From Oscillospiraceae bacterium (GTDB lineage Bacteria > Bacillota > Clostridia > Saccharofermentanales > UBA5734), in the NCBI GenBank assembly GCA_012521915.1, contig JAAYLM010000064.1, positions 1 through 33,463 of the forward strand: a stretch of 33,463 nt of DNA. The letters run 5' to 3'. This document shows, piece after piece, positions 5,542 through 33,463 of this stretch (within the stretch, counting starts at the first letter, position 1; every line of letters begins with the position of its first letter). The translations under genes and the position numbers were made by a program. The notes under the pieces were generated by a model, which had not been told where the DNA came from, did no database searches, and saw only the letters and a list, made by a program, of their open reading frames with translations.

Positions 5542-5618
5542 TTGTATGCACCTCCTGCCCTTTTGTCGCCTGTGCTTATAGATTATTACACGATCAGGCA
5601 AACAACAAGAAGAAATCC

Positions 5619-5627
5619 TGATATAAT
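5619..5627 (+). promoter_or_regulatory. Extended -10 promoter for the 5.7-16.5 kb operon
   Basis: TGATATAAT (TGnTATAAT) about 70 bp upstream of the ATG at 5693; -35 region weak. Confidence 0.45.
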
Positions 5628-5692
5628 AACGGTAATACAAAACTGCCATTCCTGCTTGCGCTGCGCAGATCAACTCGAGAGAAGGTGTCCTC

Positions 5693-6682: not shown

Positions 6683-6755
6683 AGGCAATGATCGCCGGAC
6701 GATATCAGGCTGACTTAGCATGCGCGGCACAAGCCGCATGAGGTAAACAAGCATC

Positions 6756-8060: not shown

Positions 8061-8088
8061 TCAAGTTGAAACGAAAGGAAACTGAACG

Positions 8089-9117
8089 ATTCAGGCACCC
8101 CTTCAAGTAGCTATTGTCGGCTGCGGCATGGTCTCCGCGATGCATGTGCAGGCCATCCGCGCTCAGGAGAACACCCTTTTGGCCGGTGTCTATGACCATC
8201 TGCCGGAAATGGCCGCCCAGAAAGCGGTCCTATACCAAACGCGCTGTTACCCTTCCTATGAAGATTTGCTGGCCGACCCGGCGGTTGACGCGGTCGCGAT
8301 CTGTACCCCCAGTGGCCTGCATGCACAGCAGGCGCTGCAGGCGCTGGATGCCGGCAAACATGTGCTCATCGAAAAACCGATCGCCCTGAATCTGACAGAC
8401 AGCGACCGCATCTCAGAAAAGGTGCGCGAGAAAAAACTACTGGTCAGTGTGGTCAGCCAGCTGCGTTTCAGCCAGGCTGTCATTGAGACAAAAAAGGATC
8501 TTGAAGCCGGCCGGCTCGGCCGGATCGTCTCGGCTGACCTCTATATGAAATACCACCGCCCCCAGTCCTACTATGACCAGACCGGCTGGCGCGGCACCTT
8601 TGCGATGGACGGCGGCGGCGCCCTGATGAACCAGGGCATTCATGGTGTTGACCTGCTAAGCTATCTGCTCGGTCCCCTGCATAGCATCACCGCCCATGCC
8701 CGTACACTCACCCGTCAGATCGAAGTTGAAGACACGCTGGCTGCCGTTGTCTCTTTCAGATCCGGCGCGCTTGGCGTTATACAGGCGACGACCAGCGTTT
8801 TTCCCGGATTCCCGCGTCGCCTGGAGATCAATGGTGACAAGGGTTCGATCATGATCGTGGAAGACACCGTCACGCGCCGCGTCATCCTGGGTGAGCCGGA
8901 GATGGAAGAAGCCGGTCCTGACAGCCGCCACCAGGGGCACAACAACCCCATGCAGATCAGCGCGGCAGGCCATATCGCCCAATACAAGAATTTTCTGGCC
9001 GCAATCCGCAAGGAAGCGCCGTTGCTGGTCGATGACCAGGATGGCCGTCGTGCACTGGAGATTATTGTCAAAGCCTATGAATCATCCCGGGACAACCGGA
9101 TCGTTTATTTCCCTTAG
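8089..9117 (+). CDS. Gfo/Idh/MocA-family oxidoreductase; probable ATT (or ACG at 8086) start
   Basis: Rossmann strand QVAIVGCGMVSAMHV begins upstream of the first ATG (8128). In-frame TGA at 8083-8085, RBS AAAGGAA 8 nt before ATT 8089. HVLIEKP catalytic motif. Confidence 0.85.
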   Translation: MQAPLQVAIVGCGMVSAMHVQAIRAQENTLLAGVYDHLPEMAAQKAVLYQTRCYPSYEDLLADPAVDAVAICTPSGLHAQQALQALDAGKHVLIEKPIALNLTDSDRISEKVREKKLLVSVVSQLRFSQAVIETKKDLEAGRLGRIVSADLYMKYHRPQSYYDQTGWRGTFAMDGGGALMNQGIHGVDLLSYLLGPLHSITAHARTLTRQIEVEDTLAAVVSFRSGALGVIQATTSVFPGFPRRLEINGDKGSIMIVEDTVTRRVILGEPEMEEAGPDSRHQGHNNPMQISAAGHIAQYKNFLAAIRKEAPLLVDDQDGRRALEIIVKAYESSRDNRIVYFP

Positions 9118-9126
9118 AGGATACGT

Positions 9127-9177
9127 ATGGCAATGAACGCCTTTCCAGATGCCGCACAGCAAGCGCTGCGTGAATGA
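9127..9177 (+). other. Possible 16-codon micro-ORF MAMNAFPDAAQQALRE between Gfo/Idh and nitrilase genes
   Basis: ATG preceded by GAGGAT at short spacing; ends TGA-TAG directly before the next gene's AGGAGGAA RBS. Confidence 0.3.
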
Positions 9178-9192
9178 TAGGAGGAAGAAAAC

Positions 9193-10137
9193 ATGGCAAG
9201 GTATGTCAAGGTTGGTGTCGTAGCCCCCAGGCCGCTTGATCTGAATCCACAGCAGGATATGAACGCCTGTGTGGACGAGATGATCGCTTTCTGGGATTCC
9301 TGGCTGGAGCACGTGCTCTGTGATCGGCCGGATCTGGTTGTATTGCCGGAGGTCTGTGATCGTCCGGGCAATTTCAGCAAGGATCAACAGAAGGCCTTCT
9401 ACATGGCCCGCGGCGATCGCATCCGCGACCATTTTTGCGCAGTCGCCAAAACGCAAAACTGCAACATCGCTTATTCAGCTGACCGCATCATGCCAGACGG
9501 AACATGGCGCAATTCCATCCAGTTTATCAACCGCCAGGGTGGCCTCGACGGCGTATACAACAAAAACCATGTAACGCTTGGCGAATTCTATGATTACAAC
9601 ATTCTGTACGGTAAAGAAGCACCCGTGATCAAGACGGATGTCGGCACGGTGGGCGGCGTCATCTGCTTTGACTTGAACTTTCAGGAACTGCGGGAAAAAT
9701 ACATGCGCAACAGACCGGAAATGCTGGTTTTCACATCAGTGTACCATGGCGGCCTGATGCAGAATTACTGGGCTTATGCCTGCAAAGCATATTTTATCGG
9801 TTGTGTGTCCAATGACCAGTGTACCGTGATCAGTCCGACCGGTGACCTGATCGCCCAGTCAACCAACTACTATCCATTCGTGACAGCCGACATCAACCTT
9901 GATTACCGGATTGTCCACATCGACTACAACCGGGAAAAATTTCCCGCGCTCAAGCAGAAGTACGGCTCAAGAGTCAAAATCCATGACCCCGGCCACCTTG
10001 GTTGCGTGCTGATCTCCAGTGAGTGTGACGATCTCAGCATTGATGAGGTGATTGCCGACTTCGGGTTGGAGCTTTGGGACGACTATTACGCACGCGCACT
10101 GGCCGACCGGCACACAGCCGGGCATATTGAACCCTGA
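9193..10137 (+). CDS. Carbon-nitrogen hydrolase (nitrilase superfamily amidase)
   Basis: Glu-Lys-Cys triad contexts: VVLPEVCD, YNKNHVTLGE, GGVICFDLNF. Confidence 0.9.
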   Translation: MARYVKVGVVAPRPLDLNPQQDMNACVDEMIAFWDSWLEHVLCDRPDLVVLPEVCDRPGNFSKDQQKAFYMARGDRIRDHFCAVAKTQNCNIAYSADRIMPDGTWRNSIQFINRQGGLDGVYNKNHVTLGEFYDYNILYGKEAPVIKTDVGTVGGVICFDLNFQELREKYMRNRPEMLVFTSVYHGGLMQNYWAYACKAYFIGCVSNDQCTVISPTGDLIAQSTNYYPFVTADINLDYRIVHIDYNREKFPALKQKYGSRVKIHDPGHLGCVLISSECDDLSIDEVIADFGLELWDDYYARALADRHTAGHIEP

Positions 10138-10209
10138 CCCGAAAAGCCAAAGGCTGCGGTGCAGTCGTCAGAGCATGCCTGAACAAGAACCCATCCAGAC
10201 GCCCATAAC

Positions 10210-11244
10210 ATGAAATTGGAGGACAATCAAATGCCGCAAAAAGCAAAAATTGGTGTCATCGGATGCGGCAGCATGGCCAACAGCTGCCATCTGCCCAGTC
10301 TGTCGGAAATCGAAAACTGTGAACTCACAGCGCTGTGCGACTTGATCGAGGAAAAAGTCAACAAAGCGGGTGAGCGTTTCAATGTCAACAAACGATACAC
10401 ATCCCATCTGCAGATGCTGGCTCAGGAGAATCTGGATGGCGTGGTCTGCCTGGTGGAACCGGACCGGATGTATCGCGTTGTTTACGACTGCCTGAACGCC
10501 GGGGTGCATGCCATGATGGAAAAACCGGCGGGTATCAATGCCTATCAGGCTGATTCGCTGGCCAGAACATCAGAGAAAACCGGAAAAATGCTGGCCGTTG
10601 CCATGAACCGCCGGCATATCCCCCTGGTTCAGCTGGTCATGAAAAAAATGCGTGAACTAACCCCCATCAATCAGGTTGACGGTGTCTTCATCAAGAGCAG
10701 CGATATTGCCGACAGCTGGCATTACATGAATGCCTATGTCTCCGATATCATCCATGCCGTCGACCTGGTCCGCTATCTGGCCGGATCAGAGCCCGAGAAG
10801 GTCGCCACAGTGACGGCCTGCAATGACAGCCCGGTTGATAACGCCTGGAGCAGCGTGATCCGCTTTGCCAACGGCGTCACAGGAACTTTGAAAGCCAATT
10901 ACCGGACTGGCGGACGTGTCCACAGTTTTGAGATCCACGGACCTAAGGCCAGTGCTTTCATTAACCTCGGATTTGGCAGTGTGGCGTGCAACGCGACCAT
11001 CCTGCACGCTTCCGGGGAAAGTATCTACTCATTGGCAGCTGCCGGCGTTCAGGGTCCAAACCGTGAAAAAATCGACGGTATGGCTCTAGCGGGCAGTAAT
11101 CAGTATTATCAGCATTCAGGCTTCAAACAGGAGAATATGGATTTCATCAACGCGATCTTAACCGGCCGGGAGCCCCTCTGCCCCATCGCGGACGCGGCTA
11201 AAAGCATGCATATGGCGGAAATGATGCTGGAGAACACAATTTAA
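10210..11244 (+). CDS. Gfo/Idh/MocA-family oxidoreductase
   Basis: KIGVIGCGSMANSCHLPSL Rossmann motif, HAMMEKPAGIN. Confidence 0.92.
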   Translation: MKLEDNQMPQKAKIGVIGCGSMANSCHLPSLSEIENCELTALCDLIEEKVNKAGERFNVNKRYTSHLQMLAQENLDGVVCLVEPDRMYRVVYDCLNAGVHAMMEKPAGINAYQADSLARTSEKTGKMLAVAMNRRHIPLVQLVMKKMRELTPINQVDGVFIKSSDIADSWHYMNAYVSDIIHAVDLVRYLAGSEPEKVATVTACNDSPVDNAWSSVIRFANGVTGTLKANYRTGGRVHSFEIHGPKASAFINLGFGSVACNATILHASGESIYSLAAAGVQGPNREKIDGMALAGSNQYYQHSGFKQENMDFINAILTGREPLCPIADAAKSMHMAEMMLENTI

Positions 11245-11268
11245 GCCAGTTTCCCAGGGGAGGCGTTT

Positions 11269-13434
11269 ATGCAAGCGGAACAGGGATACAGCCGGACGAT
11301 ACCGTGGACTGAGCGTGTCGCAACACTGCGCCTGCGCTGCCTGGAACGCAAAGATCCGGCGGCAGATGGCAGAAATCTTTTACAGAACCGGCCTGACTAT
11401 GTGGCTGTCTGTGACGCGCAGGCCCTTGCGGACAGTGTTTGCGTGCAATCATGGCAGCGCCGCGCAGGTCTGCGCACCCGGGCCAGGCTTTTAGCCTTGC
11501 CATTCGCTGTCGATGAGCTGGAGTTGCTGGCTGGACGCCCGGATTTCGCCGACATGGCGGTTTCCACAGATCAGCTGGAAGCAGCGCGCAAGGTCCTGGC
11601 CAACCGGAAAACACCAGGCGGGCAGACAGGACATTGCGCGCTCCATCTGGAACCTTTGTTTTCCGGCGGTATCAAGGGTGTTCACAGGCGTATTGAAAAT
11701 CGTCTGCAGAATGCCACAGATGAAGAAGCCGATACCCTGCGCGCTTATCTTGACGCCCTGGACGGCCTGTCCATCATGATCCGCCACGCCGGGGCAACGG
11801 CTTCGAAAGCGCTTGTTCACGCAGCGGACTGGCGCCGTGCTGAACTGGCAATCATGAAAACAAGCTGTGACTGGATCAGTCTGAATCCACCCCGCTCTTT
11901 CCGCGAGGCGATCCAGCTTCTGTGGCTTGTCAATCTGGCAGTCGAATACGGCGATAACGCCGGACTGATCTGCCCGGGTCGCCTGGACCGCACCCTCAGG
12001 CCCTTCTATGATGCCGACATAGCAGCCGGCCGGCTTAACCGCCCTGATGCCCTTATGCTCATTGAAAGCCTCTACCTGCTGATCAACCATTTTGTTGCGG
12101 ACGGCCTGGCCGTTGCCGTCATGGTGGGCGGCACGGATGAAAATGGCGCTGACACAACGCATGAACTGTCCTTCCTTTGCCTGGAGGCTCTGCGGCGCAC
12201 ACGCCTTGTCTACCCGACGGTCGGCGTTTGCTGGCATCCGCAAACGCCACCGGCACTGACAAAATTGGCTACAGAGCTGATCGCGTCAGGATTGGCCACC
12301 CCGGCCTTTTTCAATGATCCCGTCATTCGACGCGGTCTTGAGTGTTATGGCATCCCACAGGCAGAATCCGGTCATTACATCAACTCAACCTGTGTGGAAA
12401 TAACCCCAATCGGCCGCAGTAATGTCTGGGTGGCTTCGCCCTATTTCAGCCTGTGCCAGCTTTTGCTGGATGAAATAGCAGAACAAGCTGAGGCGCAGCA
12501 GCCTGTGTCTGATTTCCAGACCTTCATGCAGCATTATTTCAGCCGGCTGGCCAGCCAGATCAGCCAGGCCGTGCTAGAGCAGCAGACATTGCGCGCGGAA
12601 AGGCATGAATATGGACGCAAGCCGTTACAAAGCGTCTTTACGCGGGACTGCATCAGCCGGGCTAGTGATATCGACGCCGGCGGTGCCCTGACCAACTGGG
12701 TCGAGTGTTCTTTTGTTGGCCTGGCCAATCTGGTCGATTCCCTGGCTGTGATCCGCGCAGAAATTTTCCAGAAAGGTTCCTACAGTTTTACCACCCTCAA
12801 GGATCTGCTGGACAGAGATTTCACCGATCATGAAGACATCCGCCAGCGCTTTCTCAACGAGCACCCCAAATACGGCAATGCTATACCCGCTGTTGATGAT
12901 TTAGTAGCCACCACAGCGCAGGTCCTGCAGCAGGCGTGCGCCAGACACCGGCTGCCACCTGACCGATCACCCTTCATCCCTGGTACTTTTTGCTGGATTA
13001 TGCATGAACGGCTGGGTTCCCAGTGCGGGGCGACACCGGATGGTCGCCGCCGGGGCATGCCTTTCGCGGATGGAGGTGGCCCGGCACAAGGGCGGGATCA
13101 GTCCGGCCCGACCCGTTCCATCCTCTCAACGACGTCCTGGGACCATCATCACCTGATCGGCGGTCTGGCTTATAATATGAAGTTTTCCAGCAGCCTTTTC
13201 ACATCACAAGCAGCCATTGACAGCCTGCACGATCTCATCTTGACCTACCTCAGCCGGGGCGGTTTCGAGACACAGATCAATGTGGTCAGCCGGGAGCGGC
13301 TGGAAGACGCAGAGAAGCATCCGGAGCGCCACCGTGATCTGGTTGTGCGGATCGGCGGCTATACGGACTATTTCACGCGCCTGTCACCGGAAATGCGGCG
13401 TGAAATCATAAACCGGACGGACCATGCACGCTAA
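11269..13434 (+). CDS. Glycyl radical enzyme (PFL-like), paralog 1
   Basis: Thiyl-radical Cys in NSTCVEITP (CxE), C-terminal glycyl radical motif VVRIGGYTDYF (predicted radical Gly697, codon 13357-13359), TPDGRRRGMPFADGGGPAQGRDQSGPT. Strong RBS GGGGAGG. Confidence 0.92.
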   Translation: MQAEQGYSRTIPWTERVATLRLRCLERKDPAADGRNLLQNRPDYVAVCDAQALADSVCVQSWQRRAGLRTRARLLALPFAVDELELLAGRPDFADMAVSTDQLEAARKVLANRKTPGGQTGHCALHLEPLFSGGIKGVHRRIENRLQNATDEEADTLRAYLDALDGLSIMIRHAGATASKALVHAADWRRAELAIMKTSCDWISLNPPRSFREAIQLLWLVNLAVEYGDNAGLICPGRLDRTLRPFYDADIAAGRLNRPDALMLIESLYLLINHFVADGLAVAVMVGGTDENGADTTHELSFLCLEALRRTRLVYPTVGVCWHPQTPPALTKLATELIASGLATPAFFNDPVIRRGLECYGIPQAESGHYINSTCVEITPIGRSNVWVASPYFSLCQLLLDEIAEQAEAQQPVSDFQTFMQHYFSRLASQISQAVLEQQTLRAERHEYGRKPLQSVFTRDCISRASDIDAGGALTNWVECSFVGLANLVDSLAVIRAEIFQKGSYSFTTLKDLLDRDFTDHEDIRQRFLNEHPKYGNAIPAVDDLVATTAQVLQQACARHRLPPDRSPFIPGTFCWIMHERLGSQCGATPDGRRRGMPFADGGGPAQGRDQSGPTRSILSTTSWDHHHLIGGLAYNMKFSSSLFTSQAAIDSLHDLILTYLSRGGFETQINVVSRERLEDAEKHPERHRDLVVRIGGYTDYFTRLSPEMRREIINRTDHAR

Positions 13435-13475
13435 AAAGTGCTGTCATCCTGATCCGTGGAGGTGACGCAGGATAT

Positions 13476-15584
13476 ATGCCGGAATTAGATGCCACAATAT
13501 TGCTTGCTGCCAGCGAGCCCTTTGCCGCCGGTTTGTGCGAGCGGCTAAGCGCACTGCCCGTGGAGCGGTTCGCCCATGCATGGCGACGCTGGCTGGAACA
13601 CACGCCTTTGCCGTCATATGATGGTTCTTCCCTATACCCCTGCGGTAAAAATCTGCCGGACCATACACGGCAAGGTGTTCTCCCCAATTATTCATTTACT
13701 TTCAGCTGGGATCGGAATGTACTGAACACCAAAGCAGCTGAGCATCCTGAACTAGCCGGGCAGATGAAAGCCTTGGCCGATCTTATGGCAGAAGAAGAGG
13801 CCTGCATACCCAGAAAAAACCAGCGGCATACTGTGGGCGGGAACGCTTACACCCATGCCATTCCAAATTATGACAGGGTTTTACGCGAGGGTCTGGCGTC
13901 TTATGCCGAACGGGCAGAAGCAGGCCTGCGTGTCGCATCAGATCCAGAAACAAAAGCTTTTTATACCGGTATGCTCGATCTGCTGGATGGCATTCGCGTC
14001 TGGCATGCCCGCCTGATCAGGCAGGTCCAGCAGTACACTGCTTCCAGTTCCTGGAAAGACCGGCTGCTGGCCGCGCTGGAGCAGGTGCCTTTTCATCCTG
14101 CCCGCAGTTTCTACGAGGCCTTGGTCGCCTACAATGTCGTCTACTATCTGGATGGTTGCGATAACCCGGGACGAATGGATCAAGTTCTGCATCCCTACTT
14201 CAACAACGGCCACGATCAGGAAGATGCCTGGCAGACGTTGAGCAATTTCGCCGACAATGTCAGTGCCAACAATGGCTGGAGCATGGCTCTGGGCGGAACA
14301 ACAGCCGACGGACAGCCGGCTTACAACGATTTGACCCGTCTAATCCTGCTGGCCATGCGCGGTCGTTTCCGCCCCAGTATCGAACTGCGCGTGCGCCATG
14401 ATATGCCTGGAGAAATCTGGGACGCCGCTGCAGAGGCGCTGGCTTCAGGTAACGGACAGCCGGCTTTTTATCACGAAGAAGCTTATCTCGCCGGATTAAA
14501 TGATGCACAGCTGGGCATCAGCGCGTCTGACCTTGTCCGCTGGAACGGAGGCGGCTGTACCGAAACCATGATCCACGGCTGTTCCAACGTCGGCTCTCTG
14601 GATGCCGGCTTCAACTTACCGCTCATCCTGGCAGATTCCCTGGCAAAAAACCTGCGCGATGGCACAACGTTCGACAATATCATGACCGCCTTTCTGCAAG
14701 ATCTGCACCGGGAGATCCATACGGCTTTATCTTTGCTCAATGAACATCTCGCAGCCCGGGCACGGCATCGCAGCCAACCGATGCGTTCACTTCTGATTGA
14801 TGATTGCCTTGAACGCGGCCGCGACTTTAACGCAGGCGGAGCCCGCTACAACTGGTCAGTCGTCAATGTGGCCGGCCTTGCCGATGTCGCTGATGCCCTG
14901 GAGGCTTTACGGGTAGCGGTCTACGAAGAGCATCTGCTTACGCCCGGGGCAATGCAGGCCGTAATGGCAAATAATTTCGCCGATCATCAGGCTTTGCGCC
15001 AGCGATTGCTGGCCTGCGCGAAATTCGGCAACGATGAGCCTTCTGTGGATGCGCTGGCTGTGCTTGTGGCAACAGCGGTTTATGACGCGATAGCCGCGGT
15101 ACCCTGCGTGCGGGGTGGCAAATTCCTGCCGTCGCATATCATGTTTGAAACCTTCGCCACAGCCGGTATACCGGTTGGCGCCTTGCCGGATGGCCGGCTG
15201 GCCGGAACACCACTGTCTGACAGCGTCGGTCCCGTACAGGGACGCGACCGCAAAGGGCCGACCGCGATGCTGCGCAGCGTAACCCGCCTTCCTTTGCGAC
15301 GGGCGATTGGCACACCGGTGCTGAACCTGCGTCTGGCAAAAGCCACTTTAAACAGCAATCCGGGCCGGCAGCGCTTCAAACAGCTGACCGAAGCCTATTT
15401 CGCCATGGGCGGCCTGCAAATCCAATATTCCCTGCTGGATCGCGAAGAACTGGAAGATGCCTTGGTCAATCCGCACAAGCATGAGGATCTGATCGTTCGC
15501 ATCGGCGGTTACGCAACGTACTTCAACAGGTTGACACCGGAACTGAAACGTGAAGTCATTATAAGGACGGAACACGTTGTATAG
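13476..15584 (+). CDS. Glycyl radical enzyme (PFL-like), paralog 2
   Basis: GGGCTETM (CxE), C-terminal IVRIGGYATYF (predicted radical Gly678, codon 15507-15509), LPDGRLAGTPLSDSVGPVQGRDRKGPT. Confidence 0.92.
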   Translation: MPELDATILLAASEPFAAGLCERLSALPVERFAHAWRRWLEHTPLPSYDGSSLYPCGKNLPDHTRQGVLPNYSFTFSWDRNVLNTKAAEHPELAGQMKALADLMAEEEACIPRKNQRHTVGGNAYTHAIPNYDRVLREGLASYAERAEAGLRVASDPETKAFYTGMLDLLDGIRVWHARLIRQVQQYTASSSWKDRLLAALEQVPFHPARSFYEALVAYNVVYYLDGCDNPGRMDQVLHPYFNNGHDQEDAWQTLSNFADNVSANNGWSMALGGTTADGQPAYNDLTRLILLAMRGRFRPSIELRVRHDMPGEIWDAAAEALASGNGQPAFYHEEAYLAGLNDAQLGISASDLVRWNGGGCTETMIHGCSNVGSLDAGFNLPLILADSLAKNLRDGTTFDNIMTAFLQDLHREIHTALSLLNEHLAARARHRSQPMRSLLIDDCLERGRDFNAGGARYNWSVVNVAGLADVADALEALRVAVYEEHLLTPGAMQAVMANNFADHQALRQRLLACAKFGNDEPSVDALAVLVATAVYDAIAAVPCVRGGKFLPSHIMFETFATAGIPVGALPDGRLAGTPLSDSVGPVQGRDRKGPTAMLRSVTRLPLRRAIGTPVLNLRLAKATLNSNPGRQRFKQLTEAYFAMGGLQIQYSLLDREELEDALVNPHKHEDLIVRIGGYATYFNRLTPELKREVIIRTEHVV

Positions 15585-15593
15585 GAGCCGCAC

Positions 15594-16502
15594 ATGTCGC
15601 TAAAAGGCACTGTTTTCGACATCCAGAAATTTTCGATCCATGACGGGCCTGGCATCCGCACAACGGTCTTCCTGAAAGGTTGTCCGTTGCGCTGCCTTTG
15701 GTGCCACAATCCTGAATCACAAAAAAAAGAAACAGAGCTTTCTTTTTCCGCGGATAACTGTATCGGTTGCGGCTGGTGTTTTGCCAATTGTCCGAACACT
15801 GCTCATGTTATGGTAGAAGGTAAGCATCGCCTGCTGCGTGACCGGTGCGTCCGATGCGGCATCTGCGCACAACAATGTTATGCCAGGGCGATCGAGGTGA
15901 TCGGCCGCCCGATGTCTGTTGATGAGGTTATCGCGGAAGTGATCAAGGATCTGCCTTTTTATCTGACGTCCGGCGGTGGTATGACCCTGTCAGGCGGCGA
16001 GCCCATGATGCAGTTCCCTTTTACTGCGGCTTTGCTGCGCGCGGCCCGCGAAAAAGGTCTGTACAACTGCCTGGATACCTGCGGCTATGCCCCAACCGGA
16101 CAATACCTCTCGATTCTCGGTGATGTCGATCTTTTCCTGTATGACATCAAAGACACTGATCCCGAGCGTCATCTGAAAACAACCGGCGTGCCCCTGGCGC
16201 CAATACTGCGCAACCTGGAGCAGATCAATGCCGCCGGTGGCCGCCTGATTTTGCGCTGTCCGCTGATACCGGGCATCAACACGGATCGGGAACACCTTCA
16301 TCGGCTGGCTGATCTGGCCAGCTCGCTGGAAAACGTTATCGAAGTCACCCTGCACCCCTACCACCCTCTTGGCCAAAGCAAAGCGGAGCGCATCGGCGCC
16401 ACCTATCCGCTACCGGATAACGGCTTTGCCGCTAAAGAGGATATTGCTTTCTGGCTGAAGGAAATCAGCTGCCGGACACAAAAACCGGTAAGGCAGAATT
16501 AA
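15594..16502 (+). CDS. Glycyl-radical-enzyme activating enzyme (radical SAM plus two 4Fe-4S motifs)
   Basis: SIHDGPGIRTTVFLKGCPLRCLWCHNPES (CxxxCxxC), CIGCGWCFANCP and CVRCGICAQQC, TLSGGEPMMQ. Confidence 0.95.
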   Translation: MSLKGTVFDIQKFSIHDGPGIRTTVFLKGCPLRCLWCHNPESQKKETELSFSADNCIGCGWCFANCPNTAHVMVEGKHRLLRDRCVRCGICAQQCYARAIEVIGRPMSVDEVIAEVIKDLPFYLTSGGGMTLSGGEPMMQFPFTAALLRAAREKGLYNCLDTCGYAPTGQYLSILGDVDLFLYDIKDTDPERHLKTTGVPLAPILRNLEQINAAGGRLILRCPLIPGINTDREHLHRLADLASSLENVIEVTLHPYHPLGQSKAERIGATYPLPDNGFAAKEDIAFWLKEISCRTQKPVRQN

Positions 16503-22004: not shown

Positions 22005-23291
22005 ATGGAACAGGGAGCCTATAACCCTTATATGACAGCGCAAACACAGTTTGACCAGGTGGCCGAGCAGATCAATCTGGACCCGGCTGTCCGGGCTTTG
22101 ATCCGTCAGCCCAGCCGCGAGTTTCATTTCACGATCCCGGTTAAGATGGACGACGGCGGTACCAGGGTATTCAATGCCTACCGCATCCACCACAATGATG
22201 CCAGAGGTCCCGTCAAGGGCGGCATTCGCTTCCATCCCCAGGAAACGGTTGACACCATACGGGCATTGTCCATGTGGATGACCTGGAAATGCGCTGTGGT
22301 GGACATTCCGCTTGGTGGCGGCAAAGGCGGGGTTATCTGTGATCCGCACGACCTGTCCATGGGTGAGCAGGAGCGTCTGTGCCGCGGTTACGTGCGGCAG
22401 ATGGTCAAAAATTTCGGGCCGGCTGTGGATGTTCCCGCTCCGGATGTCATGACCAATGGTCAGCATATGCTCTGGATGATGGACGAATATGAGGCGATCA
22501 CCGGTGGCCATTATGCTGGTGTCATAACCGGTAAACCGGTCGGCATGGGCGGGTCGCTGGGGCGCAGAGAAGCTACAGGTTACGGTGTTATCTATACGCT
22601 GGCGGAGGCGCTGCCGAAACTGGGTATGGACCTTGCTCAAACCACCGCGAGCATCCAGGGATTTGGCAATGTCGGCGAATATGCGGCAAGGCTTTATGAA
22701 ACGCTTGGCGGCAAGATCATCGCGATAAGCTGTTGGGACCAGCATGACCGCAAAGCCTATACCTTCCGCAAAAAAGAAGGTCTCGATATCGGCCGGCTCG
22801 CTGAAATCAAAGACACGTTTGGCTCGATTGATCTTGATAAGGCCAGGGCACTTGGCTGCGAAATTCTGCCAGGTGATGCCTGGATTGCACAGGAAGTCGA
22901 CATCCTCATGCCCTGCGCCCTGGAAAACCAGATCACTTCTGAGGCATTCACCAGAATCAGCGGTCAGGTCAAGGTGATCTGCGAAGCTGCCAACGGCCCG
23001 ACAACACCCGGTGCCGACAAGCTGATCCGCGAGAAGAATATTTACCTGATCCCTGATTTTCTTTGCAACGCAGGTGGTGTCACCTGCAGTTACTTTGAGC
23101 AGGTGCAGTGCAATATGAATTATTTCTGGCCGCTGGACGAGGTTCTGGATAAATTGAAATTCAAAATGACCGCCGCTTTTCATGCGGTTCATGACCTGGC
23201 CTGGCAAAAATCTCTGTATATGCGGGATGCAGCCTACATCATCGCGATCAACCGTGTTGCTGAAGCCGTTAAAATGCGCGGTTGGGTATAA
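22005..23291 (+). CDS. Glu/Leu/Phe/Val dehydrogenase family, probable glutamate dehydrogenase
   Basis: NDARGPVKGGIRFHP, VVDIPLGGGKGGV, VPAPDVMTNGQHMLWMMDEY, GFGNVGEYAA, ANGPTTPGAD. RBS AGAGGAGAT. Confidence 0.95.
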   Translation: MEQGAYNPYMTAQTQFDQVAEQINLDPAVRALIRQPSREFHFTIPVKMDDGGTRVFNAYRIHHNDARGPVKGGIRFHPQETVDTIRALSMWMTWKCAVVDIPLGGGKGGVICDPHDLSMGEQERLCRGYVRQMVKNFGPAVDVPAPDVMTNGQHMLWMMDEYEAITGGHYAGVITGKPVGMGGSLGRREATGYGVIYTLAEALPKLGMDLAQTTASIQGFGNVGEYAARLYETLGGKIIAISCWDQHDRKAYTFRKKEGLDIGRLAEIKDTFGSIDLDKARALGCEILPGDAWIAQEVDILMPCALENQITSEAFTRISGQVKVICEAANGPTTPGADKLIREKNIYLIPDFLCNAGGVTCSYFEQVQCNMNYFWPLDEVLDKLKFKMTAAFHAVHDLAWQKSLYMRDAAYIIAINRVAEAVKMRGWV

Positions 23292-23371
23292 AAGAGGGTT
23301 TGCACCCACAGCCCGCGCCAGAACCGGCCTGGCCTATTTTCCGGCATGAACAGGTACAGGAGACCGCGACC

Positions 23372-26098
23372 ATGGAGCGATATAAAAATGTGGCCAAAGA
23401 TGATCTGGTAGAGCGCGCCAAAGAACTGGAGTGCCTTTATCTGATCGATGAAGCGTTGGCCGGCACACCCTTTCCGGATGTTACACGTCAGATTGCTGAG
23501 ATCATTCCCGTCGGTTTCCGGAGCTTGTCCAGCTGCATCGTCTCCATCAGGCTGGATGGGGAAACCTACAGCACCAAGCCTGACGTCCAGGGTGCTGATA
23601 CATTGCAGACACCGATCATGGTCAACGGGGCCGAACGTGGCTATATCAAAGTCGCCTATCCCAAAAACACTTTCTCCGAGGACAGCCCTGTATTTCTGGA
23701 GCAGGAGAAAAAGCTGCTGCATACCATCGCAGCCCGTGTCGCAGAACAGGTGACCAGCAGAACAGATCGAGAAACCGATAGGTATCAGAATAAATGGAAA
23801 ACAATCATCGATCTTCTACAGAAGACAGATCATGAAAGCCTGTTATATGTCTGTGGCAGGATGGTCAACATGCTTTGCCGCGCAAACCCACAGTTGCTGA
23901 CAGCTGTTTACCAGGAAATGGGCTGGGCACATCTGGCCTACCAATGTGAAATGAACGCACCGCTGGACAGGCTGCCGGATATGGATGTAATTCGTCTGAG
24001 CGAACGCCTGTTCTCTTCAGCCGCAACCTTTCTTGACGATAAAAAGATCTATGAAAACATCAATCTGTGGATCTACCAGGGTAAAACCTATGACATAGCT
24101 CGTATTGTCAACAGGAAAGACTCGGATATTAAAAGCATCATCAAAGCACTTAAGAAATACGTTCAGACCGTCAAAGCCAATGAAGGATCCAGCGAAGCAA
24201 CCAACCGCTGGCTGAAAGCAGAACTGATCCGCCGCTTCCTCACCGAAAACCCCGCTTCAATCACAAACGCGCAAAAACATGTCAAAATTGAAGCTTTTTG
24301 TGAACTGCTGGAATCGTATATCGCCTCACCCCGGGGGATCGGCAAAATCGGCGGAAAAGGGTCCGGCCTGTTTATTGCCCGCCAGATCCTTGAAGCCCAA
24401 AAGGATGCACACCCTCAGCTCGGCAGCATCAAATGCCCGCGCACATGGTATATTTCCGCAGAGGAGATGTACAACCTGATCGATAACAACGGTCTGGATG
24501 AACTGCACGAACACAAGTACAAAGACTTGACTGAGATCAGGGCGACATATCCCGGCATTATTCAACGGCTGAAGAATCTGAGTTTTTCAACCTTTGTTGA
24601 TGACGCACTCAGTGAGATTCTGGATGCCTGCCCGGACAAACCTTTGATTGTCCGCTCATCAAGTCTGCTGGAAGATCAGATTGACACCTCTTTTGCCGGC
24701 AAGTACAAAAGTCTTTTTATTCCCAATACCGGCACAAAGGCAGAACGCCACAGACAGCTGGTCGAAGGAATTCTGGAAGTCTACGCCTCGGTGTACAACC
24801 CGGATTCCATCCAGTACAGGAAGAAGCATAACCTGCTCGATTACGCGGAGCAAATGGGTATCCTGATCCAGGAAGTCGTCGGCAAGAAAGTTGGGCCATA
24901 CTATTTTCCGCTGGTCGCCGGACTGGCCTTCAGCAGCAACGAGCTGCGCTGGTCGCCGCGCATCAGGCGCGAGAGTGGCTTGATGCGTCTGGTCATGGGG
25001 CTTGGCACCCGGGCTGTCGACCGTATCGGAGATGATTATCCTGTGCTCATCTCACCCGGGCAGCCAGGCCTGCGTGTCAATCAGACACCACAGGATGTCA
25101 GGAAATACGCGCCTCGGAAAATCGACGTGCTGGATCTGGAAAACAAATGTTTCAGCACCCTGCCGATAATCGAGATGCTGAAAGCCTACGGCGATAAAAT
25201 CGATCATATTGATCAGGTCGTGTCTGTGTACCAGCAGGACATGATCAGAGACACCAACCGGTTTACAGCGGATTTTACCCATGATGAATTTGTCGTGACC
25301 TTTGCCGGCCTTATGCAGAAAACACACGTTAACGCGCAAATCAAAGCCATGCTGTCGGTTCTGCAGGAGCATCTGGGCTATCCGGTTGATGTTGAATTTG
25401 CCAGCGACGGGGAATCTCTCTACCTGTTGCAGTGCAGGCCGCAAAGCCGCGGCCGCGATAACGCGCCGCCACCCATCCCGGCGGACATCCCGCATAACAA
25501 CATCCTGTTCACCGCGAAAAAATACATCACAAATGGCCAAGTCAGTGGCATAAAAACCGTGGTGTATATCGATCCTGCGGCTTATGCCGGCATGGCCGTC
25601 CATGAGGATTATCTGCGTGTCGGCCGTGTGGTCAGCGAGCTGAACACACGCCTGCCGCGACGCAGTTTTATCCTGATGGGGCCAGGCCGTTGGGGCAGCC
25701 GCGGCGATATAAAACTGGGTGTACCCGTTACTTACGCAGACATCAACAATACAGCGATGTTAATAGAGATCGCGACCAGCACGGCAAATTACCAGCCGGA
25801 ACTTTCCTTTGGCACCCATTTTTTCCAGGACCTGGTCGAGGAAAACATCAAATACCTGCCACTCTACCCGGATGAGACCCAAGTGCTTTTCAACCAGTCT
25901 TTTTTTAGCAGCACAAGCAACAGGCTGGCAGAAATGCTTCCTGAATATGCCGATCTGGCACCGGTTATCAAACTCATACAAGTTGATAAAGAGTACCAGG
26001 ACCAGGAAGTCTGTGTGTTGATGAATGGTGATCTGGAAAAAGCGATGGCTTTCCTCACCCGACCACGAGAAAATGCCGAGCAGGCAACCACGCCATAA
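23372..26098 (+). CDS. PEP/pyruvate-binding (PEP-synthase/PPDK N-terminal ATP-grasp-like) protein with extra N-terminal region
   Basis: IGGKGSGLFIARQIL, PLIVRSSSLLEDQIDTSFAGKYKSLFIPN, LQCRPQSRG. No downstream PEP-binding TIM barrel seen. Start trimmed from 23282 to 23372 (AGGAG upstream), giving 908 aa. Confidence 0.8.
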   Translation: MERYKNVAKDDLVERAKELECLYLIDEALAGTPFPDVTRQIAEIIPVGFRSLSSCIVSIRLDGETYSTKPDVQGADTLQTPIMVNGAERGYIKVAYPKNTFSEDSPVFLEQEKKLLHTIAARVAEQVTSRTDRETDRYQNKWKTIIDLLQKTDHESLLYVCGRMVNMLCRANPQLLTAVYQEMGWAHLAYQCEMNAPLDRLPDMDVIRLSERLFSSAATFLDDKKIYENINLWIYQGKTYDIARIVNRKDSDIKSIIKALKKYVQTVKANEGSSEATNRWLKAELIRRFLTENPASITNAQKHVKIEAFCELLESYIASPRGIGKIGGKGSGLFIARQILEAQKDAHPQLGSIKCPRTWYISAEEMYNLIDNNGLDELHEHKYKDLTEIRATYPGIIQRLKNLSFSTFVDDALSEILDACPDKPLIVRSSSLLEDQIDTSFAGKYKSLFIPNTGTKAERHRQLVEGILEVYASVYNPDSIQYRKKHNLLDYAEQMGILIQEVVGKKVGPYYFPLVAGLAFSSNELRWSPRIRRESGLMRLVMGLGTRAVDRIGDDYPVLISPGQPGLRVNQTPQDVRKYAPRKIDVLDLENKCFSTLPIIEMLKAYGDKIDHIDQVVSVYQQDMIRDTNRFTADFTHDEFVVTFAGLMQKTHVNAQIKAMLSVLQEHLGYPVDVEFASDGESLYLLQCRPQSRGRDNAPPPIPADIPHNNILFTAKKYITNGQVSGIKTVVYIDPAAYAGMAVHEDYLRVGRVVSELNTRLPRRSFILMGPGRWGSRGDIKLGVPVTYADINNTAMLIEIATSTANYQPELSFGTHFFQDLVEENIKYLPLYPDETQVLFNQSFFSSTSNRLAEMLPEYADLAPVIKLIQVDKEYQDQEVCVLMNGDLEKAMAFLTRPRENAEQATTP

Positions 26099-26099
26099 A

Positions 26100-28367
26100 C
26101 TACCGGACAGGGTCGGCGGCTAAATCACATACAAACTGCCGCATGATACGGGCGCCATACAAGAGCGCGGACTCATCAACATCAAAATCATTGTTATGTG
26201 TCATCGAGACGATATTGCGGGCGATATTGCGGCCGCCGAGAAAGAAATAAACGCCTTTCCGTTTTTCCAGATAATGGGCGAAATCCTCTCCATACATGAG
26301 CGGCCTGTCGCGATAGAAAGCTTTGACGCCTGCAGTTACGGCAGACTGGAACATCCTGTCCGCCAGTGTCGGGTCGCTTATGACAACCGGCAGACCTGCG
26401 CCATATGTGATCTCGAACCGCCCGTGGCAGTACTCGGCGATGGATGCGCAAAGCGCTTCCATCCGTTGCTTGATGTAGGCAGAAACCTGGTTGTCATGTG
26501 TACGGATCGTCCCTTCCAGGAGACAGTGATCCGCCAGGATATTACTGGCCTTGCCAGCCTGGAAAACACCCACACTCAACACACGGGAGACAAGTGGATC
26601 AATTTCTCGGGATACCATGGTCTCCAGTGCTGTATAAGCTTTAACACCCATGGCGATCGCGTCGATAGCGGCATGTGGTGCAGCGGCATGGCCGGCTTTA
26701 CCATAAAAGGACAGGCGGAACGTATCTGAAGAGGCAAAGGTAGCGCCATGGATCACGGCGGCCTCACCGCTGTCAATCTTATTATCCATATGACAGGCGG
26801 CAATAACATCGAAAAGTTCGTCCACGCCATCATTCATCATGAGACGTGCCCCGCTGCCGCCACCTTCACTGGCTTGACCTTCTTCATTCGCCTGAAAAAT
26901 GCAGACCACACGGCAGTTGATCTGTTTTTCGATCGCCTTCAACGCTTTAACCGTACCGAGCAGGATAGCGGTGTGCGCATCATGGCCGCAAGCGTGCATG
27001 AGTCCTGCATGCTGTGATTTGTAAGGCACCGCATTTGTTTCCTGAATGGGTAGCGCGTCCATATCCGCACGCAGGCCGATAGAATAGTCCGATTTGTCTT
27101 CATTGATAAAAGCAACAAGGCTGCTCTTCCCATAGCGTTCGGTAAAGGGAACGCCAACGGCCTGTAGTTCTTTTTTGACCAGCTTCAGAGTCCCGGGCAG
27201 TGTATAACCCAGTTCCGGGTACTGGTGCAGCTGTCGCCTGATCCGTATCATGTCATTGAGATCGATAAAGTCCTGATCCTGTTTCATCGCAATACGGGCC
27301 TGGCCATGGTCTGACCCCTGCCCTGCCTCCTGACTATGCTGTAATGAGCCGCTGTTCTGGGCATGGCATTGGTCCATGATCTCCATAACCGCTAACGTTT
27401 CTTCCAGAGGAACAAAAGGGGTCTCGTCCAGGGCATAATAGGCATAACACTTGTCATAAAAATCTATGCTGCGCTCCTGGGCAATGGAAAAATCCCGCTC
27501 CAGCCAGGGGGAGGCGGCACGATCATTGATTGCGCTGACAGGATAATACTGCTGGTGCTGCACATCATGCGCCGGATCCAGATAACGCGCCCTGATAACC
27601 TGCTGACCATCTTGAGTCTGCAATTGGACTGCCGTACCGTTTTCCCCGAAGATCATCCAGGGATTGACCGTAACGGATGTCACCATGAGCATATCGATAT
27701 CCAGTACGATATTATGGTCTGTTTCAATGGTGACACGGGCACAGTCATCCGCATCACCCGGTGTCCTGACCGTCATCAGCTTGCTGAAAACTTTTTTCGC
27801 CTTGCTGTTGGTCAGGTGCAACAAGAGGTCGATATAATGGGCACCATGGATATTCAGGGTACCTCCGCCCTGATTCAGGTAGGCCTTCCAGTTGGTTCTA
27901 ACAAAGAAAGAAGACATGGTCCGCTTGATCATATAGATCTTGCCTAGCAGCTGGCTGTCCAGCAGCTGCCGCACCGCTTCGGTATCCGGCATCACACGCT
28001 GCGGCTGGTAGACCATCAGCTTACGGCCTGTCTTTTCCTGAGCGGCCTTGATCTCCAGGGCTTCCGCCATATGGTTTGCCATGGGCTTTTCCAGAAAAAC
28101 GTCGATACCCCGCTCAAATGCCCCCAATGTGTGGGGCAGGTGAAAATTATGTGGCGAAGCGACGACAACAAGGTCCAATGCTTCCTGATCCATCATGGCA
28201 TACGCATCAGTATAGCCTTTCACCTGGTACTTTTCCTTTGCTGACTGCAGTTTCTGCACATCCGGATCCGCTACGGCGGTCAAAAGAAATCCCGGATGGT
28301 TGATGATGGCGGGGACGTGGTAGTTCAGGCCCATACCCAGGCCGATGACTGCTGTTTTAAGTTGCAT
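26100..28367 (-). CDS. Gfo/Idh/MocA oxidoreductase fused to M20-family amidohydrolase (755 aa)
   Basis: N-terminal AVIGLGMGLNYHVPA and DVFLEKPMANH; C-terminal GLRADMDALPIQETN, MHACGHDAHTAILLG, FQANEEGQ...GGGSGA. Internal ATG 27285-27287 marks the probable domain boundary. Single uninterrupted frame. Confidence 0.85.
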   Translation of the reverse strand: MQLKTAVIGLGMGLNYHVPAIINHPGFLLTAVADPDVQKLQSAKEKYQVKGYTDAYAMMDQEALDLVVVASPHNFHLPHTLGAFERGIDVFLEKPMANHMAEALEIKAAQEKTGRKLMVYQPQRVMPDTEAVRQLLDSQLLGKIYMIKRTMSSFFVRTNWKAYLNQGGGTLNIHGAHYIDLLLHLTNSKAKKVFSKLMTVRTPGDADDCARVTIETDHNIVLDIDMLMVTSVTVNPWMIFGENGTAVQLQTQDGQQVIRARYLDPAHDVQHQQYYPVSAINDRAASPWLERDFSIAQERSIDFYDKCYAYYALDETPFVPLEETLAVMEIMDQCHAQNSGSLQHSQEAGQGSDHGQARIAMKQDQDFIDLNDMIRIRRQLHQYPELGYTLPGTLKLVKKELQAVGVPFTERYGKSSLVAFINEDKSDYSIGLRADMDALPIQETNAVPYKSQHAGLMHACGHDAHTAILLGTVKALKAIEKQINCRVVCIFQANEEGQASEGGGSGARLMMNDGVDELFDVIAACHMDNKIDSGEAAVIHGATFASSDTFRLSFYGKAGHAAAPHAAIDAIAMGVKAYTALETMVSREIDPLVSRVLSVGVFQAGKASNILADHCLLEGTIRTHDNQVSAYIKQRMEALCASIAEYCHGRFEITYGAGLPVVISDPTLADRMFQSAVTAGVKAFYRDRPLMYGEDFAHYLEKRKGVYFFLGGRNIARNIVSMTHNNDFDVDESALLYGARIMRQFVCDLAADPVR

Positions 28368-28405: not shown

Positions 28406-29638
28406 TCAGGTGGCTTTGAAGATGCCGCCCTGCTCATAGATATACTGCCCTGCCAGGTAATGGCGCTTGATGGCCCTTTCCAGACTGGTCTGTTCCGGCA
28501 GGTCCTCCAGCTTTTTAAAGGGACGCACAAAAACAAAGGAAAAGACGCCTTGTCCGGTAGCCAGCCTTGGATAGGGCAGGTAGCGGTTCTGGAAGCTGAC
28601 AATATTGGATTTTGGCGATAGCATCTGCTTGAGTTGCGGATCCATCAGCCAGGAATTGCAGATGATGGCTTTATAGGGGTAGTCCGGATAACAGCTGGCG
28701 AGAACGGCTCTGGCCTGCTGATAAGACTGATCGCATATTTCCGGTGTAAAGGGGCTGCTGACCCGGGCGTTCGGTATGTGGACGCTGACGATCGGATCGC
28801 CGGCTTCCAGAACGAGATGCCATTCAGTTTTAGGCAGGCAAATACGGCTGCTATCCGCCAGACCATCTGACCGCACCGGGTAACCTTCAAAATAAGACTC
28901 TGTTTCCCTGAAGTCAGCGTCCAGAGCCTGTTCCTCGTCCTGATAGCCAGGTGAACCGAATACCATGCCATCCTGCAAACGGCAGTCTGCCATCAGGAGG
29001 CAGGGTTTTTGTTTTTTGTTCCGGAAAAGCTTGACGGAACCATTGAAAGCTCTGAAAAATTCGAAATTCAATCTGCCGACCTTCAAGATACGATGGTCCA
29101 GGTACAACTGGAACCAGTTGAAGTAACGGAAAGATAGTCCAGGCCGGCCTGTGAGAAAATGAGTCTGGTTGATGCTTTCGGGGAGGGCTTTCAATGTGTC
29201 CAGGCAAATATCATCGGGGACACCGCGCTGACGCATCGCCTGGGCTACGCCCTCGATCATGGGCGCCAGTGCGAAAAACAAAATAAAATCATAGGCTTCG
29301 GAAGGCTGCCCTTCCGGTGTCTGCGGCGGACTTATTTCGCTTATCTCCTGGAGAAATGCTTTGCGGTCGCGCATGGCAAACTGCAACAGTTGTATATAGC
29401 CGGTCAACAGCGTGTCCTCCCTGATTTGCTTTGCAGCTTCCAGTACAGCCTGCTCATAACCCTGCATGACACCGTATGACTGGTTAAGCTGCTCCAGGAA
29501 ATGGACAGACGCAAAACAGGCGCCTTCACGCTGGTAATCAGCCATCGCTTTGGCAAAGATCGTGTCCCAGCGCGCGGGATAATGATCAACATGCAGCTGT
29601 CGCATCAGGTCCGCTGCCGTGCTCATGGTACCGTTCAT
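28406..29638 (-). CDS. Acyltransferase-domain protein (GNAT_C-like), function unknown
   Basis: C-terminal pattern IVSVHIPNARVSSPFTPEICDQSYQQARAVLASCYPDYPYKAIICNSWLMDPQLKQML resembles the GNAT-like C-terminal family. Alternative start at 29626. Confidence 0.6.
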   Translation of the reverse strand: MNGTMSTAADLMRQLHVDHYPARWDTIFAKAMADYQREGACFASVHFLEQLNQSYGVMQGYEQAVLEAAKQIREDTLLTGYIQLLQFAMRDRKAFLQEISEISPPQTPEGQPSEAYDFILFFALAPMIEGVAQAMRQRGVPDDICLDTLKALPESINQTHFLTGRPGLSFRYFNWFQLYLDHRILKVGRLNFEFFRAFNGSVKLFRNKKQKPCLLMADCRLQDGMVFGSPGYQDEEQALDADFRETESYFEGYPVRSDGLADSSRICLPKTEWHLVLEAGDPIVSVHIPNARVSSPFTPEICDQSYQQARAVLASCYPDYPYKAIICNSWLMDPQLKQMLSPKSNIVSFQNRYLPYPRLATGQGVFSFVFVRPFKKLEDLPEQTSLERAIKRHYLAGQYIYEQGGIFKAT

Positions 29639-30969: not shown

Positions 30970-32184
30970 TCAGATTTCTATACCCTGTGGATAGGGCACA
31001 TCGGGAATCAGCACCGGCATGCCGCTTTCCTCTGATTCAGCGGCGGCGATGGCAATGGCAGCGCTGTCACGGGCCCCTTTCGCGCCTTTCATCGACGGTT
31101 TGCCTTCCTGCAGACAGCCCAGGAACGCTTCCACGATGCCGGTGTCACCACCCCCGTGGCCACCTTCCGACTTCTCCGGGTAAATATATCGAGGTTCTTT
31201 TTCGAAGCGCTTCCAAAGCTTGATTTTAAAATTCTGTTCATTGTCATAAAAGGCTTCGATCTTGCCTTTATCGCCAACGAACATAAACTCACGGGTATAT
31301 TCAGGCGTGAAATGGCATTCCATATACGTCAGCCGCGCGCCATTGTCGTAATCAACCAGAACATGGCTGTTATCCGAAACATCGCACTCGCGGGCGAAAA
31401 CACAATAGTCCGGTACATCGGACAAGACCGCGCCATAATCCATTTTAAAGTTGTTGGTATCCTTGAACTCCGGACATGTGTCGCGAATCTCACAGTCGCG
31501 GCAGCGCTTGTCATTTGGCGCGTCACCGCCGTAGACATCGAGTCCGCCTGAAGCATAGACTTTTCTGGGGGTGGCATTAACCAGCCAGTTAGCCAGATCC
31601 AGTGAATGCGTTCCTTTTTCCAGGAGCAGGCTCTTGATGTATGCTTTGCGGCGCCTGGGTCCGTGGAAATAGTACTGGCCGCCCACCGATACATTATCGA
31701 CGACGGTGCCGATGATGACCTTGCCGATCTCGCCGGCTTCAATCAATGCCTTGCAGTCACGCATGAGAGTGCAGTATCGCAGTTCCAGACCGACCATAAA
31801 GACCACATCACTTCCCTGCCAGGCTCCGATGATCCGATCACAGTCCGCAATGCTCTGCGCCATTGGTTTTACCAGAAACATGTTCTTCTTCGCCTGCAGG
31901 ACTTTAACCGCGCAATCTGCATGCGCGAAATCAGGTGTGGCGACAACAACCGCGTCCAGGCCAGGATGAGCCAGGAAGGCGTCGATATCTGTATAGCCTT
32001 TAACCGGCTGTTCCAGCAGGTCATGATCCTTCAGCCAGTCGATGGCCGAATCGATCTTGTCCTGACGAACATCACACAGACACTCAATATAGAAATGACC
32101 GTTACGGACAAAAGCACCACCGCCAAAAAAAACACCGCGGCCGCCCAGCCCCAGAATCCCAATACCGTATTTACCGTTTTTCAT
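30970..32184 (-). CDS. Gfo/Idh/MocA-family oxidoreductase with internal Cys cluster
   Basis: GIGILGLGGRGVFFGGGAF, NMFLVKPMAQS (K retained, usual E replaced by V), CRDCEIRDTC. RBS CGGAGGG. Confidence 0.9.
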   Translation of the reverse strand: MKNGKYGIGILGLGGRGVFFGGGAFVRNGHFYIECLCDVRQDKIDSAIDWLKDHDLLEQPVKGYTDIDAFLAHPGLDAVVVATPDFAHADCAVKVLQAKKNMFLVKPMAQSIADCDRIIGAWQGSDVVFMVGLELRYCTLMRDCKALIEAGEIGKVIIGTVVDNVSVGGQYYFHGPRRRKAYIKSLLLEKGTHSLDLANWLVNATPRKVYASGGLDVYGGDAPNDKRCRDCEIRDTCPEFKDTNNFKMDYGAVLSDVPDYCVFARECDVSDNSHVLVDYDNGARLTYMECHFTPEYTREFMFVGDKGKIEAFYDNEQNFKIKLWKRFEKEPRYIYPEKSEGGHGGGDTGIVEAFLGCLQEGKPSMKGAKGARDSAAIAIAAAESEESGMPVLIPDVPYPQGIEI

Positions 32185-32318: not shown

Positions 32319-33463
32319 TTACACGGTTGTCTTTGAGACACCTGATCTCGTGCCAAAAACGGTAAAACTGATCACACCAGGCGTAATCCCCTTTGGTGCG
32401 CCGGTAATCTGCAGCCGGATCTTCATGTAGTTTCCTGGTGAAAACCTGCGGTAGTCAATATTATGGTCCTCAACATTATGGCTCATATCCAGAAGGGTGA
32501 CCCATTCATCGGATTCCGGTTTCTGGCCTTTGATGATGTATTGGTAGGGTCCAGGCAACGCAGCATGAGCATAATCCAGACCAACATCGCGCCAAATCAA
32601 ACGCGACGCGGCGATCACATAGGGTGCTTCCAGATTGACATCAATCCAGCGTTCCGTATCACCTTCCGCAGGTTGCCACCATGTCAGCAGACTATCATCA
32701 AAAGCATAAAGAGGATTACGGCCATCCACAAAGCTTGATGCCCTGATGTGCGCGCGTCTGCGGAAAGTAAGCGGCAGCAAACCTGCGTCGTTTCCTTTGA
32801 GCGGCTCTGAAATGACGCCAGGACCATATTGGGGTGTTTCCGTAATTCCGGGGCAAAAAAGCTCACCATCCTCGTTAACACCTATCAGATCCATGCCGAT
32901 TCTACGTTCGAAACAATGCGTGTAGCACAAGGTACAGGTGTAAAACGCCCATATCGTACTTTCTGGTCCGTCCACAATGCAGCCATGGCCTGCACCACGG
33001 ACAATCCCGCAGCGATGCTGGGTGATGGGATTGTTTTTCTGCAGAATGAAATGGCCGAGTGGCCCTTCATCTGAATAATAGGCGCACATGCAATAAGTTG
33101 AAAAAGATGTACCGGGAGACGAGCAAATCAAATAGTATCGTCCGCCGTGCTTGTACATCCATTGTCCCTCCAACCAGCCAAAACGTGTATTTTCATGATG
33201 TTCACCAAAGCGTTCCCATTCATTTTCCGTATTCAAAGCGCAAAGCACGATCGGCTCGGTCTTAAACACCCTAGGATCGTCCGCTTTCAACTCAACGCCC
33301 AGAGTCTGTGAAATGAAAACATACTTGTCATCTGTTTGTAGCGCAGAAAAATAATACAGATACACACGGCCGTCTTCATCGGCAAACAGGGCAGGGTCTG
33401 TAGGTTTGAGCGATGTGCCGTCCGGCAGGATGAAGTCGCCCATATAGTCGAATGGTCCAAGAG
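32319..33463 (-). CDS. GH43-like (five-bladed beta-propeller) glycoside hydrolase with C-terminal discoidin/F5-8-type-C-like domain, N-terminus cut by window edge
   Basis: Frame stays open upstream of the track ATG at 33443 (LGPFDYMGDFILPDG...), with LKPTDPALFADEDGRVYLYY, EGQWMYKHGGRYYLICSS, RGAGHGCIVDGPESTIWAFYT. C-terminal region ASSFVDGRNPLYAFDDSLLTWWQPAEGDTERWIDVNLE is discoidin-like. Confidence 0.75.
   Translation of the reverse strand, partial: LGPFDYMGDFILPDGTSLKPTDPALFADEDGRVYLYYFSALQTDDKYVFISQTLGVELKADDPRVFKTEPIVLCALNTENEWERFGEHHENTRFGWLEGQWMYKHGGRYYLICSSPGTSFSTYCMCAYYSDEGPLGHFILQKNNPITQHRCGIVRGAGHGCIVDGPESTIWAFYTCTLCYTHCFERRIGMDLIGVNEDGELFCPGITETPQYGPGVISEPLKGNDAGLLPLTFRRRAHIRASSFVDGRNPLYAFDDSLLTWWQPAEGDTERWIDVNLEAPYVIAASRLIWRDVGLDYAHAALPGPYQYIIKGQKPESDEWVTLLDMSHNVEDHNIDYRRFSPGNYMKIRLQITGAPKGITPGVISFTVFGTRSGVSKTTV

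Follow-up and report, generated by a model that had tools for sequence, protein, structure and literature searches.

The locus raises the question whether an open reading frame on the minus strand of the window (the whole stretch of DNA analysed, 33,463 nucleotides) encodes a single two-enzyme protein, or whether two neighbouring genes are being read as one. The frame joins a Gfo/Idh/MocA oxidoreductase to an M20 amidohydrolase and is laid out as follows:

26100..28367, minus strand: fusion open reading frame, 755 amino acids, ATG start, TAG stop
27345..28367, minus strand: Gfo/Idh/MocA oxidoreductase half, residues 1-341 (PF01408, PF22725 and PF02894 above their cut-offs)
27288..27344, minus strand: linker, residues 342-360, probably former intergenic DNA
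26100..27287, minus strand: M20D amidohydrolase half, residues 361-755 plus the TAG stop (PF01546, PF07687, TIGR01891)

We consider that the frame is probably a lineage-specific fusion of operon neighbours, produced by stop loss and made as one two-enzyme chain. Inspection of the reading frame on the minus strand from 28367 to 26100 found no stop between the ATG and the terminal TAG, as the first-pass annotation had reported for these 755 codons, and the linker sequence that it had quoted at the junction matches the frame exactly. Pfam searches placed GFO_IDH_MocA at residues 4-120 (1.5e-24) and a C-terminal domain at 131-336 in the N-terminal half, and Peptidase_M20 at 432-746 (4.9e-35) with the dimerisation domain M20_dimer (PF07687) at 549-643 in the C-terminal half; each half is complete within the frame. 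The calculated mass of the fusion protein is 83.7 kDa. AlphaFold2 modelled it as two confident domains (mean pLDDT 89.6, pTM 0.56), and the pTM value would fit two domains without fixed mutual placement. The pLDDT score was mostly above 90 in the Gfo half and below 50 at residues 343-364. At its 3′ end the frame lies tail to tail with a plus-strand PPDK_N-domain gene (23282-26098), with one base between the two stops (window 26096-26102).

A pattern scan across the genomes of 84,980 species gave two loci, each matching both halves, in two Clostridiales MAGs (L028, JAAZEK010000066.1, and L029, JAAZHD010000006.1). At both loci gfo and M20 are adjacent, in the same order and on the same strand, as separate genes, and orthologues of both halves share about 50-55% identity with the fusion: the Gfo half is 50-52% identical over its full length to L028:3543-4565 and L029:800-1825, and the M20 half is 53-56% identical to L028:4647-5828 and L029:1842-3014. 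The L028 gfo gene ends in TAA, followed by an 81-nt gap to the M20 start, while the 16-nt gap in L029 contains an GAGAGGAAG ribosome-binding site. Every gene of the two pairs has its own stop, and each M20 gene has its own start and SD. A family search placed both MAGs in one family; the orthologous pair was not found in the order to which the window belongs.

Because the pattern scan reaches close relatives only, we also searched whole genomes (58 relatives, 188 of the order, 391 of the class, 399 of the phylum and 30 of the relatives' order). No further orthologous gfo-M20 pair was found in these sets, and a second Gfo-M20 fusion appeared neither in 1082 whole genomes nor at the two loci from the 84,980-species scan. 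Eight genomes of the class with distant gfo homologues (34-41% identity) had no M20 gene in the flanks that were read. M20 homologues at 38-46% identity stand alone, and the stretch surrounding the best of them (46%) holds no Gfo gene. Plasmid and viral collections gave no match, and a literature search returned no relevant paper on a Gfo-M20 fusion or on the Gfo active site. Long open frames at Gfo matches in four related genomes (G002, G006, G011 and G017; up to 767 codons) were rejected as fusions, being upstream-extending open frames in GC-rich DNA without M20. A match across the junction in another genome (G004, residues 321-735, with two TAA) proved to be an M20 gene whose upstream neighbour is ceramidase-like and not a gfo gene.

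The first-pass annotation had suggested looking in relatives for the same fusion or for split adjacent genes; the search gave split adjacent pairs at both loci and no second fusion. It had also named homologues that are always separate as one part of the case against a fusion, and both orthologous pairs found elsewhere are indeed separate genes. A conserved Gfo-M20 fusion family would have representatives in independent genomes; the dehydrogenase-amidohydrolase domain combination occurs in no other genome searched and, as far as that set goes, pairs two ordinary enzyme families in a new way.

Alignment with these relatives suggests how the frame arose. In both relatives the M20 protein begins with a Met that aligns with Met361, which indicates that the M20 half retains its whole original length, beginning at its old start. 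In these relatives the gfo proteins end 5-6 residues past a conserved CH (window 334-335), near window codons 341/342, and residues 342-360 are for this reason probably former intergenic DNA. Codons 341 (TCA) and 342 (TTA) are each one substitution away from a stop. We infer stop loss by parsimony, as the simplest history of an ordinary gene pair, and the join of the two operon neighbours looks recent; no evolutionary intermediate between the split and the fused state was found. That the linker is open is unremarkable, not improbable in itself, since 41% of 75-nt intergenic windows of the same genome are stop-free in a given frame. Its codon score of 0.20 falls at about the 25th percentile of coding windows and above 97% of stop-free off-frame windows, and a quarter of stop-free intergenic windows are as coding-like by this score, which is therefore ambiguous between coding and stop-free intergenic DNA and leaves selection on the linker as protein undecided.

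In the history that we propose, a Gfo/Idh/MocA dehydrogenase and an M20D amidohydrolase would have begun as adjacent genes of one operon. Loss of the dehydrogenase stop near codon 341/342 would then have created a single frame, in which about 19 codons of former intergenic sequence became a flexible linker. The product would be one ~84-kDa protein carrying two independently folding enzymes in a 1:1 ratio, with an NAD(P)-dependent dehydrogenase-type domain followed by a di-metal amidohydrolase.

The translation signals bear on whether one polypeptide or two would be made. SD energies of 748 internal Met codons were compared with those of 119 long genes, all taken from 13 contigs or stretches of the same genome. 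The Met361 ATG (27287) scored -3.6 kcal/mol, the median for internal Met codons being -3.0 (n=748), and in 96% of the 119 long genes the best ATG was stronger. With this internal-Met-like energy, and with the AGGAGG lying inside the linker 38 nt upstream, the earlier observation that no well-spaced ribosome-binding site precedes the internal ATG holds. Such a value favours one polypeptide, and we infer translation as a single chain. A short frame overlaps the junction:

27284..27307, minus strand: out-of-frame seven-codon ORF, ATG GCC AGG CCC GTA TTG CGA TGA (MARPVLR)

Its TGA overlaps the Met361 ATG as ATGA, and its start (27307) has an SD energy of -8.5 kcal/mol, which only some 3% of the internal Met codons attain. 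Judged from these features, it is a possible coupling leader or a remnant of an overlapping gene end.

An unlikely explanation, though the most serious of the alternatives, is that the organism normally keeps two genes, possibly overlapping by ATGA, and that they have been joined at the 3′ end of gfo by a mistake in sequencing or assembly or by a private indel of one base; the fusion would then be artefactual or a rare mutant form. No stop interrupts frame +1 between codon 326 and the TGA that overlaps the M20 ATG, while frame +2 stops at codon 344, so that gaining or losing one base near the end of gfo would leave two genes in the usual overlapping arrangement. Overlaps of the ATGA type (-4 nt) rank among the most frequent gene arrangements in prokaryotes and couple translation by termination-reinitiation (PMC10666635), which would also explain the missing SD. 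Neither relative, however, shows a gfo-M20 overlap, the frame +1 ending would give gfo a tail of ~20 residues that is absent from every homologue, and codons 336-345 contain no long homopolymer. The ATGA together with the open frame +1 could also have arisen by coincidence, with a rough chance of 10-15%. The fusion is known from one assembled contig of one draft MAG (538 contigs, 94% complete, 7.25% contamination), and the lack of a second genome carrying it adds to the case for an error.

It is rather improbable that the DNA is correct and that M20 is nevertheless made also, or mainly, on its own by ribosomes that re-initiate from the leader at 27307, with the fusion as a minor read-through form. 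The strong SD of the leader and the ATGA overlap would allow a separate M20 protein without an SD of its own, and weak ribosome-binding sites are possible in coupled genes (PMC3711429), but ribosomes arriving from gfo in frame 0 would read straight across the leader. Moreover, at 18 nt from the ATG of the leader the AGGAGG is more distant than is usual for an SD, and the AGGGG closer to that ATG makes a weak one. The open frame, the domain matches, the aligned relatives, the weak internal SD and the predicted structure support the fusion reading, and the initial description of a single frame with a linker at this junction was borne out on the same grounds.

Within the fusion, the M20 half matched TIGR01891 at 291.8 bits against a cut-off of 153.75 (residues 373-737), and by this profile it belongs to the M20D amidohydrolase subfamily. 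Its metal-ligand motifs are intact (HACGHD at 458-463, EEG at 495-497, CH at 525-526 within CHMD, and MTHN at 722-725), and all four are conserved between this half and its relatives. We regard it as a predicted di-metal amidohydrolase. It reached none of the named equivalogs, scoring below the NCBIfam cut-offs for CpsA, a carboxypeptidase (316.7 versus 500), and DoeB2 (232.6 versus 550). A six-residue insertion, QASEGG, follows EEG (residues 498-503 of the fusion) and is absent from both orthologues. Elsewhere in the window's own genome, a PGA_cap (CapA-like) gene lies directly upstream of an M20 paralogue (L058, G000:C215).

The Gfo half contains both the Rossmann (NAD-binding) domain and the C-terminal domain of its family according to Pfam, and the EKP motif with its lysine is present at residues 93-95; a curated profile search reached no named equivalog cut-off for this half. 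The Asp or Asn of the DxGxH motif contributes to catalysis in the Gfo family, and this residue together with the His is common in Gfo/Idh/MocA proteins, although not universal. In the fusion the corresponding segment reads GGGTLNIHGAH (167-177), with His177 present and an Ile in the catalytic Asp/Asn position:

27849-27851, minus strand: Ile173 codon, replacing the Asp/Asn of the Gfo catalytic motif

Across 24 distinct motifs compared, this position was Asn in 14, Asp in nine and Ile only in the fusion, so that 23 of the 24 carry D or N. The first-pass annotation had described intact motifs in both halves. This is only partly right because of Ile173: LEKP is intact, and so are the metal-ligand motifs of M20; DxGxH is not. 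The substitution lowers our confidence in catalysis by the Gfo half, not in its homology. It seems quite improbable that the fusion is a decay intermediate whose Gfo half, with Ile173 and a lost stop, is losing function and serves as a mere leader for a working M20 enzyme, for although no other motif of the 24 has Ile, the frame, cofactor-binding motif and EKP are otherwise intact, full-length identity to intact homologues is 50-52%, and the codon score of the half (0.38) is coding-like.

The proposed fusion closes a run of genes on the minus strand, in which it is preceded by:

32319..33443, minus strand: GH43-like protein with a weak F5/8 type C match, first of the run in the window, frame open past the edge
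30970..32184, minus strand: second Gfo/Idh/MocA oxidoreductase, 404 amino acids
29640..30914, minus strand: neutral ceramidase-like protein, 424 amino acids (PF04734, 35.6 bits against a cut-off of 32.1), 1 nt before the next gene
28406..29638, minus strand: NAT_N/GNAT_C acyltransferase-like protein, 410 amino acids (PF18164, PF18082), 38 nt before the fusion

The amide theme previously noted for this neighbourhood is present at the level of family labels only (ceramidase-like, GNAT and CN_hydrolase genes). Neutral ceramidase-like (PF04734) proteins occur three times in the 33-kb contig (883-2244, 2284-3585 and 29640-30914 (-)), and a possible fourth, seen by eye only, adjoins an M20 gene in a congeneric genome (L023). 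The plus-strand region 4112-16502 encodes a DeoR regulator, a 2-hydroxyacid dehydrogenase, two Gfo/Idh/MocA proteins, a CN_hydrolase, two neighbouring glycyl-radical enzymes (721 and 702 amino acids) and a radical-SAM activase, and looks like a catabolic locus centred on the two glycyl-radical enzymes.

The surroundings of the relatives' pairs differ, with Abhydrolase_7 and PGA_cap genes after the L028 pair and an OGG-type glycosylase gene after the L029 pair. The PGA_cap gene (L028:6937-8025) is the second gene after M20. Conservation of the gfo-M20 adjacency in a second family amid different surroundings argues for one shared pathway, which, to go by family memberships, most likely breaks down an N-acylated sugar or amino-acid conjugate. 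The adjacency supports a shared pathway, not direct product hand-over, and the direct deacylation of the oxidation product suggested by the first-pass annotation is one possibility among several. Possible, yet on the whole doubtful, is a true bifunctional enzyme, dehydrogenase and amidohydrolase in one, whose tether makes two successive steps in the breakdown of such a conjugate more efficient.

Gene fusions are used for predicting enzymes that work together. If real, the fusion and the conserved adjacency would tie an uncharacterised Gfo/Idh/MocA dehydrogenase to an M20D amidohydrolase, provide a testable pathway hypothesis for both enzymes, and exemplify how a single stop loss can turn an operon pair and its intergenic DNA into a two-domain enzyme. 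We regard its interest as modest pending a second genome or confirmation at the protein level.

Among the structure matches listed, by sequence and by fold, no solved chain spans both halves, and each half has its own nearest structures. Those closest to the Gfo half are the Gfo-type oxidoreductases DgpA2 (PDB 9m37), 3e82, 3fd8 and 3e18, with which it shares the Rossmann domain, the C-terminal alpha/beta domain, GLGMG and EKP; it differs from them in the Ile that replaces Asp/Asn in DxGxH, in falling below named-equivalog cut-offs and in the attached amidohydrolase. The M20 half is closest to the M20D enzymes 4ewt, YxeP (1ysj), ILL2 (1xmb) and N-acylglutamine aminoacylase (6slf), sharing with M20D structures the fold (TM 0.92 to 4ewt and 1ysj, normalised by target), the metal-ligand motifs and the dimerisation domain. 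Unlike those systems, it carries an attached dehydrogenase and falls below the CpsA and DoeB2 cut-offs. The L028 and L029 pairs, finally, share with the fusion their gene order, strand and an M20 start at the Met361 equivalent, but they consist of two genes separated by 81 or 16 nt and have Asn at the Gfo catalytic position.
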